Source of the DNA: Oscillospiraceae bacterium
GTDB lineage: Bacteria; Bacillota; Clostridia; Oscillospirales; Acutalibacteraceae
Direction of reading: 5' to 3'
Length of the DNA stretch: 64,000 nucleotides
Assembly (NCBI GenBank): GCA_015066405.1
Contig: SVOM01000003.1
Span: 1-64,000, forward strand
Of the stretch, positions 2,992-24,333 are shown in pieces. The notes below the pieces were generated by a model, which was not told the DNA's origin, ran no database searches, and was given only the letters and a program-made list of their open reading frames with translations. The position numbers and the translations under genes are program-made. The first letter of the stretch is position 1. Every line of letters begins with the position of its first letter.

Positions 2992-5900
2992 ATGAGCTTT
3001 GTGCATCTACACCTGCATACCGAGTACAGTCTTTTAGACGGTAACTGCCGCATAAAGGACCTTGTTCGTGCTGCAAAAGAAAAGGGACAAACCGCTGTGG
3101 CTATCACCGACCACGGCGTTATGTATGGTGCGGTTGAATTTTATAAATGCGCAAAGCAAGAAGGCATTAAGCCAATTATCGGATGTGAGGTGTATGTTGC
3201 GCCGCGCACAAGATTTGATAAAGAAAAATTTTATGACAGTGAATATTACCACCTTGTTTTACTTTGCAAAAATGAAACGGGTTATAAAAATCTTATAAAG
3301 CTCGTATCTGCGGGCTTTACCGAGGGCTTTTACAGTAAGCCGAGAGTAGATAAAGAGCTTCTTGAACAGCATAGCGAGGGGCTTATTGCCCTATCGGCTT
3401 GCCTTGCGGGCGAGTTGCCGCGCCTTATTATGAAAAACGAGTATGCAAAGGCAAAGGAATCGGCACTTTGGTTCAAGCGTGTTTTTGGAGAAGGCAACTA
3501 TTATATTGAACTTCAAGACCACGATATTTTTGAGCAAAAGCAGGTAAATGCAAAGCTTATTCAGTTGTCGCGTGAAACCGCCATTCCGCTTGTTGCAACA
3601 AATGATGTGCATTATATCGAAAAGGCGGACAGTGAGGCGCATAAGGTACTGCTTTGCATACAAACGGGCAAAAAGTTAAATGATGAGGACACGCTCGAAT
3701 TTAAAACCGAAGAGTTCTACTTAAAAAGCGAAGAAGAGATGTTAAAAATCTTTTCCAATGTGCCCGAGGCCATACACAATACCGCAAAAATAGCCGAGAG
3801 TTGTAATTTTGATTTTGAGTTTGGTAAAATAAAGCTACCCTATTTTGATATAGGAGAGCAAGACCATTATGAATATTTCCGCAAAAAATGCTATGAGGGG
3901 CTATACAAAAACTATGGTAGCAACCCCGAGCAAAAGGTAATTGAGCGACTCGAATACGAGCTTGAGACCATAAACAAAATGGGCTATGTTGATTATTATT
4001 TAATCGTTGCCGATTTTGTTAATTATGCCAAAACACACGATATTCCCGTAGGTCCGGGGCGTGGTAGCGGTGCGGCAAGTATTGCGGCATACTGCGTTGG
4101 TATTACGGGAATTGACCCGATAAAATACAACCTGCTTTTTGAAAGATTTTTAAACCCCGAACGCATATCAATGCCCGACTTTGATATAGATTTTTGCTAT
4201 GTTAACAGGCAAAAGGTTATCGATTATGTAATAGAAAAATACGGTACTGACCGTGTAGCACAAATAGTAACATTTGGCACTATGGCGGCGCGTGCGGCCG
4301 TTAGAGACGTTGGCAGGGTTATGGATGTGCCTTACGCCGTTTGCGATAAGGTTGCAAAGCTTATTCCGCAGGAGCTTAAAATTACTATTCCTGCGGCACT
4401 TAAAAAATCAGCCGAGTTAAACTCACTTTACCAAAATGATGCCACTGTCAAAAAGGTTCTTGATATGGCGATAAAGCTTGAAGGCTCGCCACGTAATGCA
4501 TCAACTCACGCGGCAGGTGTTGTAATTTCCGACAAGGCGGTTGATACTTATGTTCCCCTTGCAAAAAACGATGAAGCCGTTGTAACCCAGTATACTATGA
4601 CTGCACTTGATGAATTAGGCCTTCTCAAAATGGACTTTTTGGGGCTTCGTAACATAACCATTATTGATGTTACCGAAAAGGCGATAAAAAAATTCAAGCC
4701 TGATTTTGACATAGAAAATATACCGCTTGATGATGCCGAGACCCTTAAAATGATGGCTAAAGGCTATACTGAGGGAGTATTCCAGTTTGAATCTGAGGGT
4801 ATGAAAAATGTTCTCAGACAATTTGTGCCCGAAAATATTGAAGACTTAATTGCAATACTTTCGCTCTATCGCCCGGGTCCAATGGACTCTATACCAAAAT
4901 ATATAAGCAACCGCCATAATCCGCAAAATGTAACCTATTTGCACCCGTTGCTAAAGCCCATACTTGAGGTTACCTACGGATGCATTGTTTATCAAGAGCA
5001 GGTTATGCAAATTTGCCGTTCCCTTGCGGGCTATTCCTTTGGCCGCGCCGATATTGTGCGCCGTGCAATGAGTAAGAAAAAGCACGATGTCATGGAAAAA
5101 GAGCGCAATGCATTTATCTATGGCGAGACCGACAGTAACGGAAATGTGATTTGTGAAGGTGCGGTAAAGCGCGGTGTGCCCGAAAATATAGCAAAAGAGA
5201 TATTTGATGATATGTCGGCTTTTGCTTCCTATGCGTTCAATAAAGGACACGCGGCGGCTTACGGCGTAATTGCCTATCGCACGGCATATCTTAAATGCCA
5301 CTACCCCGCCGTTTATATGGCTGCGCTGTTTTCAAGTATGCTTGACAGCACTGGTAAAATATCTCAATACAATTCCGAATGCAAGCGATTAGGGCTTAAA
5401 ATTTTGCCGCCCGATGTTAACCGCAGTTTTGCACTGTTCCACGGAAATAATGATGAAATACGCTTTGGACTTTGCGCTCTAAAAAACATCGGTATGGGGC
5501 TTATTGAGAAAATCATATATGAACGCGAAAGCGGTGGAGAATATACATCGATGTATGATTTTTGTTTGCGTAATGCATCGCGCGATTTTAACCGCCGTGC
5601 GCTCGAAACACTCATAAAAAGCGGCGCTATGGATTCGCTTGAAAAAACACGCAAGCAAATGCTTTATTCCATTGATACGGTGTTATCTGCAGTTGATAGC
5701 GAAAAGCGTTTTCGTATGGCGGGACAAATTAATCTTTTTGATGATTCAGCCACACCGACAGATTTTGCTTTGCCGGAAATAAGCGAGATGCCGCGCTCTG
5801 AACTGCTGCGGCTTGAAAAAGAGGCAACGGGTATGTATTTATCAGGACACCCCGTGGAAAACTATGAGGGCTTTGCAAGGCGCATAGGAGCGGCTAAAAC

Positions 5901-18649: not shown

Positions 18650-18688
18650 AACAAAAACGACCGATTTCTCGGTCGTTTTTGTTATAAT
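18650..18688. terminator. Bidirectional terminator
   Basis: aacaaaaacgaccga-tttc-tcggtcgtttttgtt. Confidence 0.85.
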
Positions 18689-19464
18689 ACCTTTGATAAA
18701 AAGTCTTTAAGACGCTCGCATTTCGGATTTTCGAAGAACTCTTTAGGTGGTGCCTCTTCCATAATGATACCGTCATCAATAAACAGTACCCTATCGGCAA
18801 CCTCTCTTGCAAATCCAATTTCGTGGGTAACAACAACCATTGTCATACCATCATTTGCAAGCTCCTTCATAAGCTCAAGCACTTCCCCTACCATTTCAGG
18901 ATCGAGCGCGCTTGTCGGCTCATCAAAAAGGATTACATCGGGATTCATAGCAAGAGCTCTTACTATCGCAACACGCTGCTTTTGTCCGCCCGATAGTTGG
19001 GAAGGATAAGAATCGGCCTTTTCTTCAAGACCTATTCTTTTAAGCAGTTTCATGGCGTTTTCCTTTGCCTCTGCCTTAATTTGCTTTTTAGTTTTTATCG
19101 GCTCGTTATTTGGATTTTTAAAACGTAATTTGCTCATACGCTTTGTTTCAACATATATAGGAGCCAGCATAATATTTTCAATAACCGTTTTGTTGTTGAA
19201 CAAATTAAAGTGCTGGAAAACCATACCCATTTTTTGACGATGAATATTAATATCTACCTTCATATCGGCAATATCAACACCGCCAAAGAAAATATTGCCC
19301 GAAGTTGGGTCTTCCATACAGTTAAGGCAACGAAGGAAGGTCGATTTGCCCGAGCCCGAAGGGCCGATAACAACAACCTTTTCGCCCTTTTTGATGGTAA
19401 CATCAATGCCGTTCAAAACGTTGTTTTTTCCAAAGGATTTTTTGAGATTAACGACTTCTATCAC
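18682..19464 (-). CDS. Polar amino-acid ABC transporter ATP-binding protein
   Basis: Walker [10 protein letters not shown], signature [17 protein letters not shown], Walker [16 protein letters not shown]; about 20-aa insertion after [12 protein letters not shown]. Confidence 0.94.
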
Positions 19465-20158
19465 TTTTTCTCAAACTCCTTTCCATAACCTTAACAAGTC
19501 CGCTTATAATCAGTACTAATACAATATAAATCAACGCCATAACAAGATACGGCACCATAAATTCATAACTGTTTGAGCCAATGCGGTTAAACGCTACATA
19601 CAAGTCAAGCGCGCCAACAAAGCTTACAACTGATGTCTCTTTAATAAGCGTTATAAACTCATTACCCAAAGTGGGTAAAATATTCTTTACCGCCTGCGGA
19701 ATAACGATAGATAGCATCGTTTTCGAGAACGGCAAGCCCATTGCTCTGCCGCCTTCCATTTGCCCGGGGTCAACCGACATAATACCGCCACGCATAATTT
19801 CTGATATGTATGCGCCCGAGTTTAAGCCAAATACTGCAGTTGCAACCGTTACTGACGGCAAATTTATACCCATAAGCGGCAGTGCTACATAGTAAGACAA
19901 AAGCAGCTGCACAACCATAGGTGTACCGCGGAAAAATGCCACATAAAATGTGCATATTCCGTTGAGTACCCTCGGTAAAAGCTTGTATTTAGGCAATACC
20001 CTTACAACTGCTATCAAGGTACCTATAACGATACCGATAATAAGACCGATAACTGCGATTTTTAGGGTGTTTTCAAGCCCCGTTAGAACCTCTTTATATC
20101 CGCCTTTATCAATAAAGACTTCAATAAAACGGTTTATTTTTAAACCAAAATTTCCCAT
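19448..20158 (-). CDS. Polar amino-acid ABC transporter permease
   Basis: [49 protein letters not shown]-like EAA loop. Confidence 0.93.
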
Positions 20159-20181
20159 AATTTATTTCCTTAAAAGAACAC

Positions 20182-20209
20182 AATAGCCTCACCTTGCGGT
20201 GAGGTTATT
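20182..20209 (-). terminator. Intra-operon hairpin between substrate-binding protein and permease genes
   Basis: aatagcctcacc-ttgc-ggtgaggttatt. Confidence 0.6.
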
Positions 20210-20231
20210 GCTATAATTATATTTTTTAAAC

Positions 20232-21077
20232 TTATGCTACTTCGTTAATAGCATCAACAATGAATTTAGCGGGGTCAGAGTCGATAATAACATATTTGAT
20301 GTTACCATTGATAAGGTCCTGAACAGCCAAAGAACCTGAACCATAGCCCTTACCTTCTACATCGTAACCATCAAAGCCCCACTCAGCATCGCCTTCAACA
20401 TAAAGGCCGCCTGTGGTACCATTCTGATAACCGATTTTTGTGGTTTTATCAAGACCTTTGAGAATTGCTACAACATCATCGGTTGTTTTGCAAGCATCAA
20501 ATGTTGTGTCATCGCCCTTAACGATAAGCTTCTGGTTTGCTTTGTAGTATGAGGTTGAGAATGTTACATACTCTTCTCTCTCTGCGTTTACTGTAAGACC
20601 TGCCATAGCGATATCGCATTTGTGCTGACCAACTGTTAAGCAAACAGCATCAAATTCCATATCTTTAATTACAAGTTCTTTGCCGAGATAGTCAGCAAGA
20701 AGCTTTGCAATTTCCATATCAATACCATAGAAGCTGTCGCCCTCTTTATACTCAAAAGGTGCAAACTGTGCATTTGTTGCAACTACAAGTTGGTCCTTTG
20801 AAGCATCCTCAGCAGCCGACTTAACAGCTGTGGGCTCGCCATCGCCGAAATACTTATCGCAGATGGTATCAAATGTGCCGTCTTTTTTAATTTTATCAAC
20901 AAACTCGTTAACCTTAGTGAGTAATTCGGGCTGATTTTTATCAACACCGAAAGCGTAATCTTCCTCAGTTAAGTTGATGTCAATAATCTTTACCTTTGCA
21001 GTTTTTGTTCCGCCACAAGCAGCAAAACAAGTGATAATCATAAGAAGTGCTAAACTAAGTGCTAAAATCTTTTTCAT
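20232..21077 (-). CDS. Amino-acid ABC transporter substrate-binding lipoprotein, apparently circularly permuted
   Basis: Lipobox ITCFAAC; LVVATNAQFAPFEYKEGDSFYGIDMEIAKLLAD; the usual C-terminal segment EEDYAFGVDKNQPELLTKVNEFVDKIKKDGTFDTICDKYFG is at the N-terminus. Confidence 0.9.
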   Translation of the reverse strand: MKKILALSLALLMIITCFAACGGTKTAKVKIIDINLTEEDYAFGVDKNQPELLTKVNEFVDKIKKDGTFDTICDKYFGDGEPTAVKSAAEDASKDQLVVATNAQFAPFEYKEGDSFYGIDMEIAKLLADYLGKELVIKDMEFDAVCLTVGQHKCDIAMAGLTVNAEREEYVTFSTSYYKANQKLIVKGDDTTFDACKTTDDVVAILKGLDKTTKIGYQNGTTGGLYVEGDAEWGFDGYDVEGKGYGSGSLAVQDLINGNIKYVIIDSDPAKFIVDAINEVA

Positions 21078-21111
21078 TATTTTTCCCTCCGAAAAATTAT
21101 TTGGTATACAT

Positions 21112-21140
21112 ACTATAGCACCAAATTAATAAAAATGCAA
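21112..21140 (-). promoter_or_regulatory. Sigma-A-type promoter of the amino-acid ABC operon
   Basis: Minus strand TTGCAT-17 nt-TATAGT. Confidence 0.65.
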
Positions 21141-21210
21141 GTGTTTTTACATATTTTTTTAAAATTTGTGAAAAATATGCAAAAATTAACCGTTATAATG
21201 CATTTTTATT

Positions 21211-21253
21211 CATTATGTGTGCATAATGCGGTAAAATATGCACATATTTTACC
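21211..21253. promoter_or_regulatory. Two adjacent operator-like palindromes
   Basis: CATTATG-TGTG-CATAATG and GGTAAAATATG-CA-CATATTTTACC. Confidence 0.5.
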
Positions 21254-21332
21254 TTATTGCATAAAAAATAATATTATGATAAAATTATATTTACATTATA
21301 AAAATAGACTTATGGGCTTATGGGGATTTTTT

Positions 21333-23363
21333 ATGCTTTCTTTTAAGAATATCAAGGGCTTTATAAAATTAAACAAACAACAACTGATTATAAGCATTAT
21401 GTCGCTTCTTTTGGTTGGGTGCATTATTATCGCCGCTATAATAATCGCTAAATCCCCAAATGAAAATACGGCTGCTGTATCATCATCAAGCTCCGATGTC
21501 TCCTCTCTTGTTTCGAGTGTCGAGCCGGAACCGGAACCTGAACCGGAACCTGAACCCGAACCTGAGCCCGAGCCCGAGCTTATTATCGCATCCCCAACGG
21601 CTGACAGTTTTACAACAACAAAGCCCTCTACAGTTTTTGCGGGCAGCTCTATACCAAATTTGCCGCTCACTATAAATGGCAAGGAAATAGAACGCGACCA
21701 AAACGGTATGTTTTCACATACCGTAACACTTTCCCCCGGCAAAAATACCGTTACTGTTATAAACGGGGACACAACAAAAACATTTACTGTTACTTATAAA
21801 TATGTTGTAATTGAAAGTTATACGCCCAAAAAGGCTCAAACCTATAGTAGCGGTTCCACCTTTATAGTAAATGTAACCGCGCGTGCGGGAAGTAAAGTTA
21901 CCGCCACCTTTTCGGGTAAAACCATAACCCTTACTAAGCAGGATAAACAGGATGAAGAACTGAAGGGCGATGATACCTTTTCGGTATTCTCGGGCAGCTT
22001 CACATTACCCAAAGACAAACGCACCGATACAAATATGGGCGTTGTTAAATTTAAAGCCACATATAACGGCATTACCGAGGAATACTCTTCGGGCAAAATA
22101 ACCGTTAAAAAGAGCAGTTCTATAAAGGATAGCGACCCAGCGGTAACACCACAGGGTGGTAGATATATTGATGTTGGCTCGGGCATTGTTGCAACAATAG
22201 TTAATACCTCGGCCGAAACCTTTAACGGCAACACAACCGATGACTATTCACGTCCGACTAACAACTATTTACCCAAGGGCACTATGGACTACTGCGCCGA
22301 GGGTACAATAATTGATAACAATAATGAATATGTACTGCTTCGTTGCGGCAGGCGTGTATATCTCAACACCTATGTGGGAAAAAGCTACAAAAGAGCCGTT
22401 ACAAAAACGGCACCTGGCTCACTGCCCGACCATAATGAAATTACAGTATCGAATGTTGATACCGCTGAGCGTTATACATATATTAAGCTTGACTGTTTAT
22501 GGAAAGCTCCATTCTATTTTGATATACTTAATCAAAGCTACAACAGTGAGCGCTATCAAGATTATGCGTTTGATACCGTTACATATTCGTATATTGATAT
22601 TACTTTTTGCTATGCAACCGTGTTTACGGGTACGGTAGAAATACCCGCCGACCACCCGCTTTTTGCATCGGCAGAGATTATCAAAAATGAATATGATTAC
22701 ACCCTTAGACTGCATTTAAAGAAAACGGGTGCATTTTACGGCTGGGATGCTTTTTACGATGAAGACGGCAAACTTACCTTTAAATTTCTAAACCCCGTAA
22801 AACTCGAAAATCAGGATTCCCTTAACGGTGCGTGCATATTCATTGACGTTGGCCACGGCGGCACCGATGGCGGCGCAACGGGTTTGTCGTATGCCAACCG
22901 AGAAGCCGTTTGCAATTTAAGATTAGCAAATAAATTAAAAGAAAAGCTTGAAGCACTTGGTGCTACAGTTATTATGTCGCGTACCGATGATTCTACGGTA
23001 GACCCACCCGATAAGCAGGAAATGTTACGCGCGGCAGATGCCGATTACTGCATAGCCATACATCACGATTCCGGCACAACACAAAGCGGTTTCGGTGCAT
23101 ATCACTTCACACCGTTTTCTAAAACAGCGACCGATTTTATCGATGTGCGTATGGATAATACCGATGTTTTTATACGCGACTGGGACGTGCGATTCCATTA
23201 CTACTTTATGGCGCGTATGACCTACTGTCCTGTTGTTCTTACCGAAAACGGCTTTTTGACAAACGCGCATGACTACAATACAACCATTGAGCCCACCGCC
23301 ATAGAACAAAAAGCGCAGGCGCTGACTGACGGTGTAGTCGATTATTTCCGTTCTATACAGTAA
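21333..23363 (+). CDS. N-acetylmuramoyl-L-alanine amidase (Amidase_3) with membrane anchor and (EP)n linker
   Basis: IFIDVGHGGTDGGATG, VIMSRTDDST, ADYCIAIHHDSG; N-terminal TM; start codon uncertain (21312 or 21333). Confidence 0.85.
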   Translation: MLSFKNIKGFIKLNKQQLIISIMSLLLVGCIIIAAIIIAKSPNENTAAVSSSSSDVSSLVSSVEPEPEPEPEPEPEPEPEPELIIASPTADSFTTTKPSTVFAGSSIPNLPLTINGKEIERDQNGMFSHTVTLSPGKNTVTVINGDTTKTFTVTYKYVVIESYTPKKAQTYSSGSTFIVNVTARAGSKVTATFSGKTITLTKQDKQDEELKGDDTFSVFSGSFTLPKDKRTDTNMGVVKFKATYNGITEEYSSGKITVKKSSSIKDSDPAVTPQGGRYIDVGSGIVATIVNTSAETFNGNTTDDYSRPTNNYLPKGTMDYCAEGTIIDNNNEYVLLRCGRRVYLNTYVGKSYKRAVTKTAPGSLPDHNEITVSNVDTAERYTYIKLDCLWKAPFYFDILNQSYNSERYQDYAFDTVTYSYIDITFCYATVFTGTVEIPADHPLFASAEIIKNEYDYTLRLHLKKTGAFYGWDAFYDEDGKLTFKFLNPVKLENQDSLNGACIFIDVGHGGTDGGATGLSYANREAVCNLRLANKLKEKLEALGATVIMSRTDDSTVDPPDKQEMLRAADADYCIAIHHDSGTTQSGFGAYHFTPFSKTATDFIDVRMDNTDVFIRDWDVRFHYYFMARMTYCPVVLTENGFLTNAHDYNTTIEPTAIEQKAQALTDGVVDYFRSIQ

Positions 23364-23451: not shown

Positions 23452-23910
23452 GTGGATAACACAAAAACAATAACTACTAATAAAAAAGCGTTTCACGAGT
23501 ATTTTGTGGTGGAAAGCTTTGAAGCCGGAATTTCTCTTTTCGGCACCGAGATAAAGTCTATCAGAGCCGGCACAGTTAATTTAAAGGATGCTTGGTGCAG
23601 TGTGGATGATGGCGAGCTTATTTTAAAGCAAATGCACATAAGCCCGTATGAGCAGGGCAATATATTTAACAAGGACCCAATGCGGCCGCGCAAACTGCTT
23701 ATGCATAAGCGTGAGATAATTCGCCTTGGCGGACTTGTACAGCAACAGGGTTTAGCACTCGTTCCCCTATCGCTTTATTTTAAGGGCTCGCGTGTTAAGG
23801 TGCAGGTAGGTCTTTGTAAAGGTAAAAAGCTATATGATAAGCGCGCCGTAGCCGCAAAACGCGATGCCGACCGTGATATAGCCAGGGCGATTAAAGAGCA
23901 AAATCATTAA
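23452..23910 (+). CDS. smpB: SsrA-binding protein
   Basis: NKKAFHEYFVVESFEAGISLFGTEIKSIRAG, LKDAWC, ALVPLSLYFKGSRVKVQVGLCKGKKLYDKR; GTG start with aaaggagg. Confidence 0.97.
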   Translation: MDNTKTITTNKKAFHEYFVVESFEAGISLFGTEIKSIRAGTVNLKDAWCSVDDGELILKQMHISPYEQGNIFNKDPMRPRKLLMHKREIIRLGGLVQQQGLALVPLSLYFKGSRVKVQVGLCKGKKLYDKRAVAAKRDADRDIARAIKEQNH

Positions 23911-23986: not shown

Positions 23987-24333
23987 GGGGGCGTAAAGGT
24001 TTCGACAGGGATTTTGAACCAAGATAAGCGAGTAGCGGTGCGGAACCGCTCTAAAAGCCGCAAATTATAAATTAAGTAACAATAATAAAGTTGCACTTGC
24101 TGCCTAATTAGGCAGCCATCCGAATAGGAAGTTCCGCGGTCCTATGAGGGTGTCGATTAGCGGAGAACGTGAATATCTGAGAGTCCTGTAAGATATCACG
24201 GTTTAAAGGGCTACCAAATCGGCCAGTCTGATGTTTGACGGACCGATTTGGGAAATCAAATAAACATCTGCACTCGGAGAAAGTTTTGGGAATTGATTTT
24301 TGGACACGGGTTCGACTCCCGTCGCCTCCACCA
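23987..24333 (+). ncRNA. ssrA: Transfer-messenger RNA; predicted tag ANYKLSNNNKVALAA
   Basis: Acceptor stem ggggg-cg / cg-cctcc-acca, 5' gtaaaggtttcgac, 3' ggttcgactcccgtcgcctccacca, ORF gca aat tat aaa tta agt aac aat aat aaa gtt gca ctt gct gcc taa. Confidence 0.95.

Follow-up and report, generated by a model that had tools for sequence, protein, structure and literature searches.

Repeated natural circular permutation of the amino-acid-binding lipoproteins of ABC importers in Clostridia

The window analysed here, a stretch of 64,000 nucleotides from an Oscillospiraceae bacterium (contig SVOM01000003.1), carries on its minus strand the gene for a substrate-binding lipoprotein, followed downstream in the same operon by a polar-amino-acid (PAAT) permease and an ATPase, both of which are ordinary. 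The binding protein can be divided into three segments: N, which normally forms the N-terminal half of lobe 1 together with the crossing strand; M, which is lobe 2; and C, which comprises the last lobe-2 strand, the hinge crossing and two lobe-1 helices. The canonical order of these segments in the family is N-M-C, whereas in the window protein it is C-N-M. The features of the locus are as follows.

20232–21077, minus strand: the entire gene, for an amino-acid-binding lipoprotein in circularly permuted (C-N-M) form; 281 aa, colinear in at least 80 other loci and modelled with AlphaFold
21015–21077, minus strand: residues 1–21, the signal peptide with the lipobox as far as its lipid-modified cysteine; MKKILALSLALLMIITCFAAC, C21 invariant
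20841–20993, minus strand: relocated C-terminal segment C, residues 29–79; matches the C-terminus of AncQR (4zv1), 179–233
20793–20840, minus strand: linker from the old C-terminus to the old N-terminus, residues 80–95; 14–26 aa across the permuted homologues measured
20517–20792, minus strand: segment N, residues 96–187; PF00497 SBP_bac_3, E = 1.1e-31, AncQR match from its residue 11
20235–20516, minus strand: segment M, lobe 2, residues 188–281; AncQR match to its residue 171, D266 invariant
19448–20158, minus strand: polar-amino-acid ABC permease, same operon; PF00528, E = 4e-23, HEQRo_perm_3TM over its cut-off
18682–19464, minus strand: GlnQ-like ABC ATPase, same operon; ABC_tran PF00005, best NCBIfam model GlnQ with E = 2.2e-92, under its cut-off

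A gene divergently oriented to the permuted one (21135–23363) codes for a 742-aa cell-wall amidase-like protein with a CwlD-like C-terminus and, towards the N-terminal end, a Pro-Glu repeat (EPEPEP...). Further along, an ORF named SmpB-like from its sequence (23452–23910) has a tmRNA gene directly after it (23987–24333; tag ANYKLSNNNKVALAA). A sister species within the window's genus has a binding protein of a third segment order, M-C-N, beside the same kind of amidase gene (L094; G003:C63). Compared with 18682–23363 of the window, its permease and ATPase also look different, so the whole operon at that site appears to have been exchanged for another.

Read from its N-terminus, the window protein passes from the signal peptide and lipobox through KIIDINLTEEDYAFGVDKNQPELLTKVNEFVDKIKKDGTFDTICDKYFG, the linker and LVVATNAQFAPFEY... 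to YVIIDSDPAKFIVDAINEVA, and it ends with a helix after the conserved Asp266, followed by the stop. The initial annotation had read this gene as a circular permutation in which the usual terminal segment sits right after the lipobox, the old N- and C-termini are joined by a linker, and the stop falls where the moved segment would normally follow. The open reading frame bears out the last two of these points: residues 80–95 lie as a linker between segments C and N, and a counterpart of segment C is absent from the protein's own C-terminus. The first is correct in that the C-terminal ~50 residues have been moved behind the lipobox, but they are not literally flush with it, as about 8 residues separate the first strand from the lipid cysteine C21.

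Comparison with solved proteins shows the two halves in reversed order, with window residues 96–270 corresponding to AncQR (4zv1) 11–171 and residues 25–79 to AncQR 179–233; the small piece alone matches AncQR 179–233 with E = 4.6e-07. Searching the family profile against PDB sequences gave the same reversed-order matching, and none of the best 60 PDB sequence matches was a solved structure of permuted order. Pfam assigns the protein to SBP_bac_3 (PF00497) over two stretches (E = 1.1e-31; score 109.8 bits, cut-off 26.4), and therefore to the type II fold. It has the same segments as its relatives, cyclically rotated and each homologous to its counterpart, so that with its C-N-M order it is a permuted variant of the family and not a canonical member. 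In a 51-member alignment the lipid cysteine C21, Gly160, Thr162, Arg167 and Asp266 are invariant, and the last four align by sequence with G68, T70, R75 and D157 of GlnBP. The conserved contacts of SBP_bac_3 proteins to the alpha-amino and carboxylate groups are present in the window protein, including D266, the equivalent of GlnBP D157, which we take to be a ligand contact. G68, T70 and R75 of GlnBP contact the ligand (PMC7400645).

Structure prediction, which the initial annotation had suggested as a check, was confident. AlphaFold2 run on the 51-sequence alignment gave a mean pLDDT of 92.7 and a pTM of 0.83, with a well-ordered N-terminal segment (block pLDDT 97–99 across residues 31–70) in which segment C contributes strands at residues 29–32, 39–41 and 44–46 and helices at 50–65 and 68–77. 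A Foldseek search of the model against the PDB retrieved type II amino-acid-binding proteins, mostly over ~180–190 aligned columns with a TM-score by target of ~0.7. Alignments of this partial length are expected when a sequential aligner meets a permuted chain, and among the top 50 no full-length match in permuted order was evident. The circular permutation that had been proposed is therefore upheld by the reversed-order homology, by the well-ordered N-terminal segment of the model and, as described below, by the retention of the order in about 80 other genomes and by syntenic orthologues within one genus. The rotation is real; what the initial annotation missed is that the order is widespread, that there is a second permutation and that permutation has arisen repeatedly. 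We conclude that the product of the gene is almost certainly a naturally circularly permuted binding lipoprotein belonging to an ordinary ABC importer for polar amino acids. The protein would fold as a normal type II binding protein, capturing an amino acid in its cleft and then delivering it to the permease.

The second permutation is found in the same genome, where C35:1208–1987 (L093) codes for a 259-aa SBP_bac_3 protein whose order, by sequence reading, is M-C-N. This protein starts inside lobe 2, ends after the crossing strand and adjoins a canonical membrane-anchored binding protein (2148–2915). M-C-N proteins are widespread in the family, and when the fetched proteins were classified with three segment profiles, 147 were C-N-M, 41 N-M-C and 28 M-C-N (redundant loci counted). 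In four loci (L106, L107 and L108, 510–530 aa; L074, 565 aa) a permuted binding protein is fused in frame to a permease; such fusions occur in both permuted orders and were read directly in L074 and L108.

After rotation of 79 sequences to one common segment order, the tree required three changes for C-N-M and three for M-C-N, all forced by its starred branches, and the 5–95% bootstrap range was 3–3 for either order. Approximately unbiased (AU) tests rejected a single clade of C-N-M proteins (p = 3.5e-5) as well as a single clade of M-C-N proteins (p = 5e-7). There have been at least six separate permutation events in Clostridia, in two cut regions. Identity to the nearest canonical relative is 72% for L007, 77% for L152, 79% for L187 and 68% for L098; in the window's own clade it is only 49%, for which reason the permutation there is probably older.

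Both forms are found at a single locus in g194, the genus of G309 (Clostridia), where 78 species were searched. A canonical orthologue is carried by about 50 species and a permuted one by 19, with one form per genome. Binding protein, permease and ATPase genes stand together in all 40 of the 40 loci whose neighbourhoods were read, upstream genes are shared in 25, and in many of the 40 the gene order is alike around canonical and permuted forms. The orthologues of the two forms are about 80–88% identical, occupy the same locus and have closely similar permeases. Comparison of the DNA of a canonical locus (L276) with that of a permuted one (L254) shows three stretches that align in place, namely the upstream genes together with the signal peptide (73.6% over 3.3 kb), N and M (83.8%) and the stretch just past the stop (84.7%), with the C block at 3980–4129 aligning to 3263–3412 (80%). 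A block of ~150 nt is shifted from the end of the gene to just behind the signal peptide and lipobox, and both flanks are where they were. The linkers of the permuted proteins of the genus retain fossils of both former ends, KYIP..G from the old C-terminus and FTTIE.G, before KLIM, from the old N-terminal spacer.

The likely origin of such genes would be a tandem duplication whose copies were fused in frame and later trimmed of their redundant ends; alternatively, the C block may have been inserted directly into the spacer. Duplication-fusion-trimming and cut-and-paste are both among the routes to permutation that have been discussed (PMC3320104), and the block relocation and linker fossils of g194 fit the two alike. 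Duplicated-segment intermediates (CNMC, MCNM or NMCNMC) were absent from the fetched proteins, a query-driven sample, and the route of origin is thus unproven.

In the rotated tree of g194 binding proteins the permuted proteins form one clade (92/87), but in the trees of the permease and of two flanking genes canonical loci (L276, L277, L281; L279, L280) sit among permuted species, so that across L254–L293 both of these trees conflict with that of the binding protein. L276 and its nearest permuted neighbour have permeases that are 94% identical and binding proteins that are 83% identical. The simplest reading of these sequence comparisons is that the gene has been exchanged between species, canonical and permuted alleles alike, although the conflict may instead reflect repeated permutation or reversion. 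Exchange would mean that one and the same transporter appears to work with either form, and, as related species seem to exchange them beside permeases up to 94% identical, the order of the segments appears to be close to functionally neutral.

In GlnBP the large domain consists of residues 5–84 and 186–224 and the small domain of residues 90–180 (PMC7400645; PMC13229503). By alignment, the C-N-M cut maps to about 169–172 and the M-C-N cut to about 94–110, both within the small domain, and in the permuted chain the large lobe is contiguous in sequence. On this mapping the lipid anchor would be carried by the small lobe and no longer by the large one: the C-terminal ~50-residue block now occupies the spacer that follows the lipobox, a linker of 14–26 residues bridges the old termini, which both belong to the large lobe, the new termini are in the small lobe, and the membrane tether would run through that lobe. 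In both permuted orders the linkers measured have a median of 17–19 aa, while the spacer from the lipid cysteine to the first segment has a median of 9–10 residues in permuted proteins against 18 in canonical ones.

This geometry allows for the possibility, which we regard as somewhat doubtful, that permutation is adaptive, the altered tether geometry having been selected repeatedly because it moves the anchor to the small lobe or alters the order of folding or export. Two different cuts, each with about three origins, map without exception to the small lobe of GlnBP, linker length is convergent, and permuted forms persist across many families of Clostridia. However, the apparent exchange of both forms at one locus in g194 suggests near-neutrality, and the small lobe may simply be where cuts are tolerated. 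It is a shade more speculative still that Clostridia convergently permute these proteins because a small-lobe tether is useful, related species swapping canonical and permuted alleles as a selectable tether switch; if so, such a tether would be useful for permease docking, folding during export or ligand release.

Near-neutral order with repeated gain of permutation has also to be weighed against a single ancient permutation per order followed by many reversions to the canonical arrangement. Change counts by themselves cannot separate gain from loss, and alleles do seem to switch within g194, but N-M-C is the order of the solved family members and the permuted clades are nested, with starred support, within canonical ones. 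The M-C-N clades, moreover, have different breakpoints, a 'DDL' stretch being C-terminal in the L097 group and N-terminal in the L098 group, which supports multiple origins and leaves reversion on this scale improbable.

Much less probable is that an unrelated domain supplies the N-terminal segment, or that this segment is what remains of a tandem, GlnPQ-like fusion of binding proteins. The tandem GlnPQ structure 6h30 likewise reads C-linker-N and is colinear with the window protein, but the AncQR match given above is to the C-terminus of a single-domain protein, and a tandem remnant sits poorly with the lack of a second copy of segment C at the window protein's own end. Nearly all permuted frames are of single-domain length (~250–340 aa), those of 510–565 aa that were examined being permease fusions, and frame length thereby rules out a tandem remnant.

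The C-N-M order is, finally, well conserved among homologues in related genomes, as the initial annotation had proposed checking. In a scan of ~85,000 species genomes at least 80 loci match the window protein colinearly, most of them over residues 1–281, with 58–92% identity; their hosts belong to Lachnospiraceae, Oscillospiraceae, Ruminococcus and Eubacterium and include the isolates Eubacterium ruminantium FB3002 and Lachnospiraceae C6A11. When 391 Clostridia genomes were searched with the family profile, the permuted order turned up in several families and in the single-contig genomes G342, G370 and G495, and with a C-linker-N query at least 57 of the 391 gave junction-spanning matches, counted as those beginning no later than query residue 10. 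Thus neither chance nor misassembly accounts for the order, and although the window and many of its relatives are metagenome assemblies, the independent colinear loci in isolates and single-contig genomes, the open frames, the conservation of the binding residues and the intact operon rule out, for practical purposes, a fault of assembly or binning as well as a pseudogene produced by rearrangement.

A natural circular permutation is, as a rule, an ancient and solitary event whose causes are hard to tell from its consequences. The orthologues of g194 are natural matched pairs that differ mainly in chain order, and with them it can be asked how permutations arise, what part chain order plays in folding and export, and whether it matters to an ABC importer which lobe carries the anchor. 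There is a warning for annotation as well: the Pfam and NCBIfam models searched score the window protein as an ordinary member and do not name the permutation.

In the open-access literature we found neither a permuted type II amino-acid-binding protein nor a description of repeated origin or of coexistence with canonical orthologues at one locus, and the only natural permuted binding protein found there was Tp0684 (MglB-2) of Treponema pallidum. Tp0684 is a type I glucose-binding protein, naturally permuted and proposed as 'Type Ic', with homologues in Gram-positive gut bacteria; its describers also allow that the permuted part was acquired from a different gene (PMC4990184). Tp0684 and the window protein are alike as naturally circularly permuted ABC binding lipoproteins, but the former has the type I sugar-binding fold, which the latter, as a type II SBP_bac_3 protein, lacks, and the passages of PMC4990184 consulted mention no canonical counterpart of near-identical sequence at its locus. 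Permutations and duplicated intermediates are documented for DNA methyltransferases (Jeltsch 1999 and Bujnicki 2002, as cited in PMC3320104); these are enzymes of another fold, whereas here canonical and permuted orthologues occur at one locus within one genus. GlnPQ (6h30) resembles the permuted proteins in that an old C-terminus is joined to the next N-terminus by a short linker, but it has two complete canonical domains, and the permuted protein is one domain, comparable to a single tandem period in shifted register. With the SBP_bac_3 proteins themselves (GlnH/GlnBP, HisJ, ArtJ and AncQR 4zv1) the window protein shares all segments, the equivalents of Arg75 and Asp157 and the operon partners; it differs from them in its C-N-M order, in its linker-joined old termini and in an anchor that would be carried by the small lobe.
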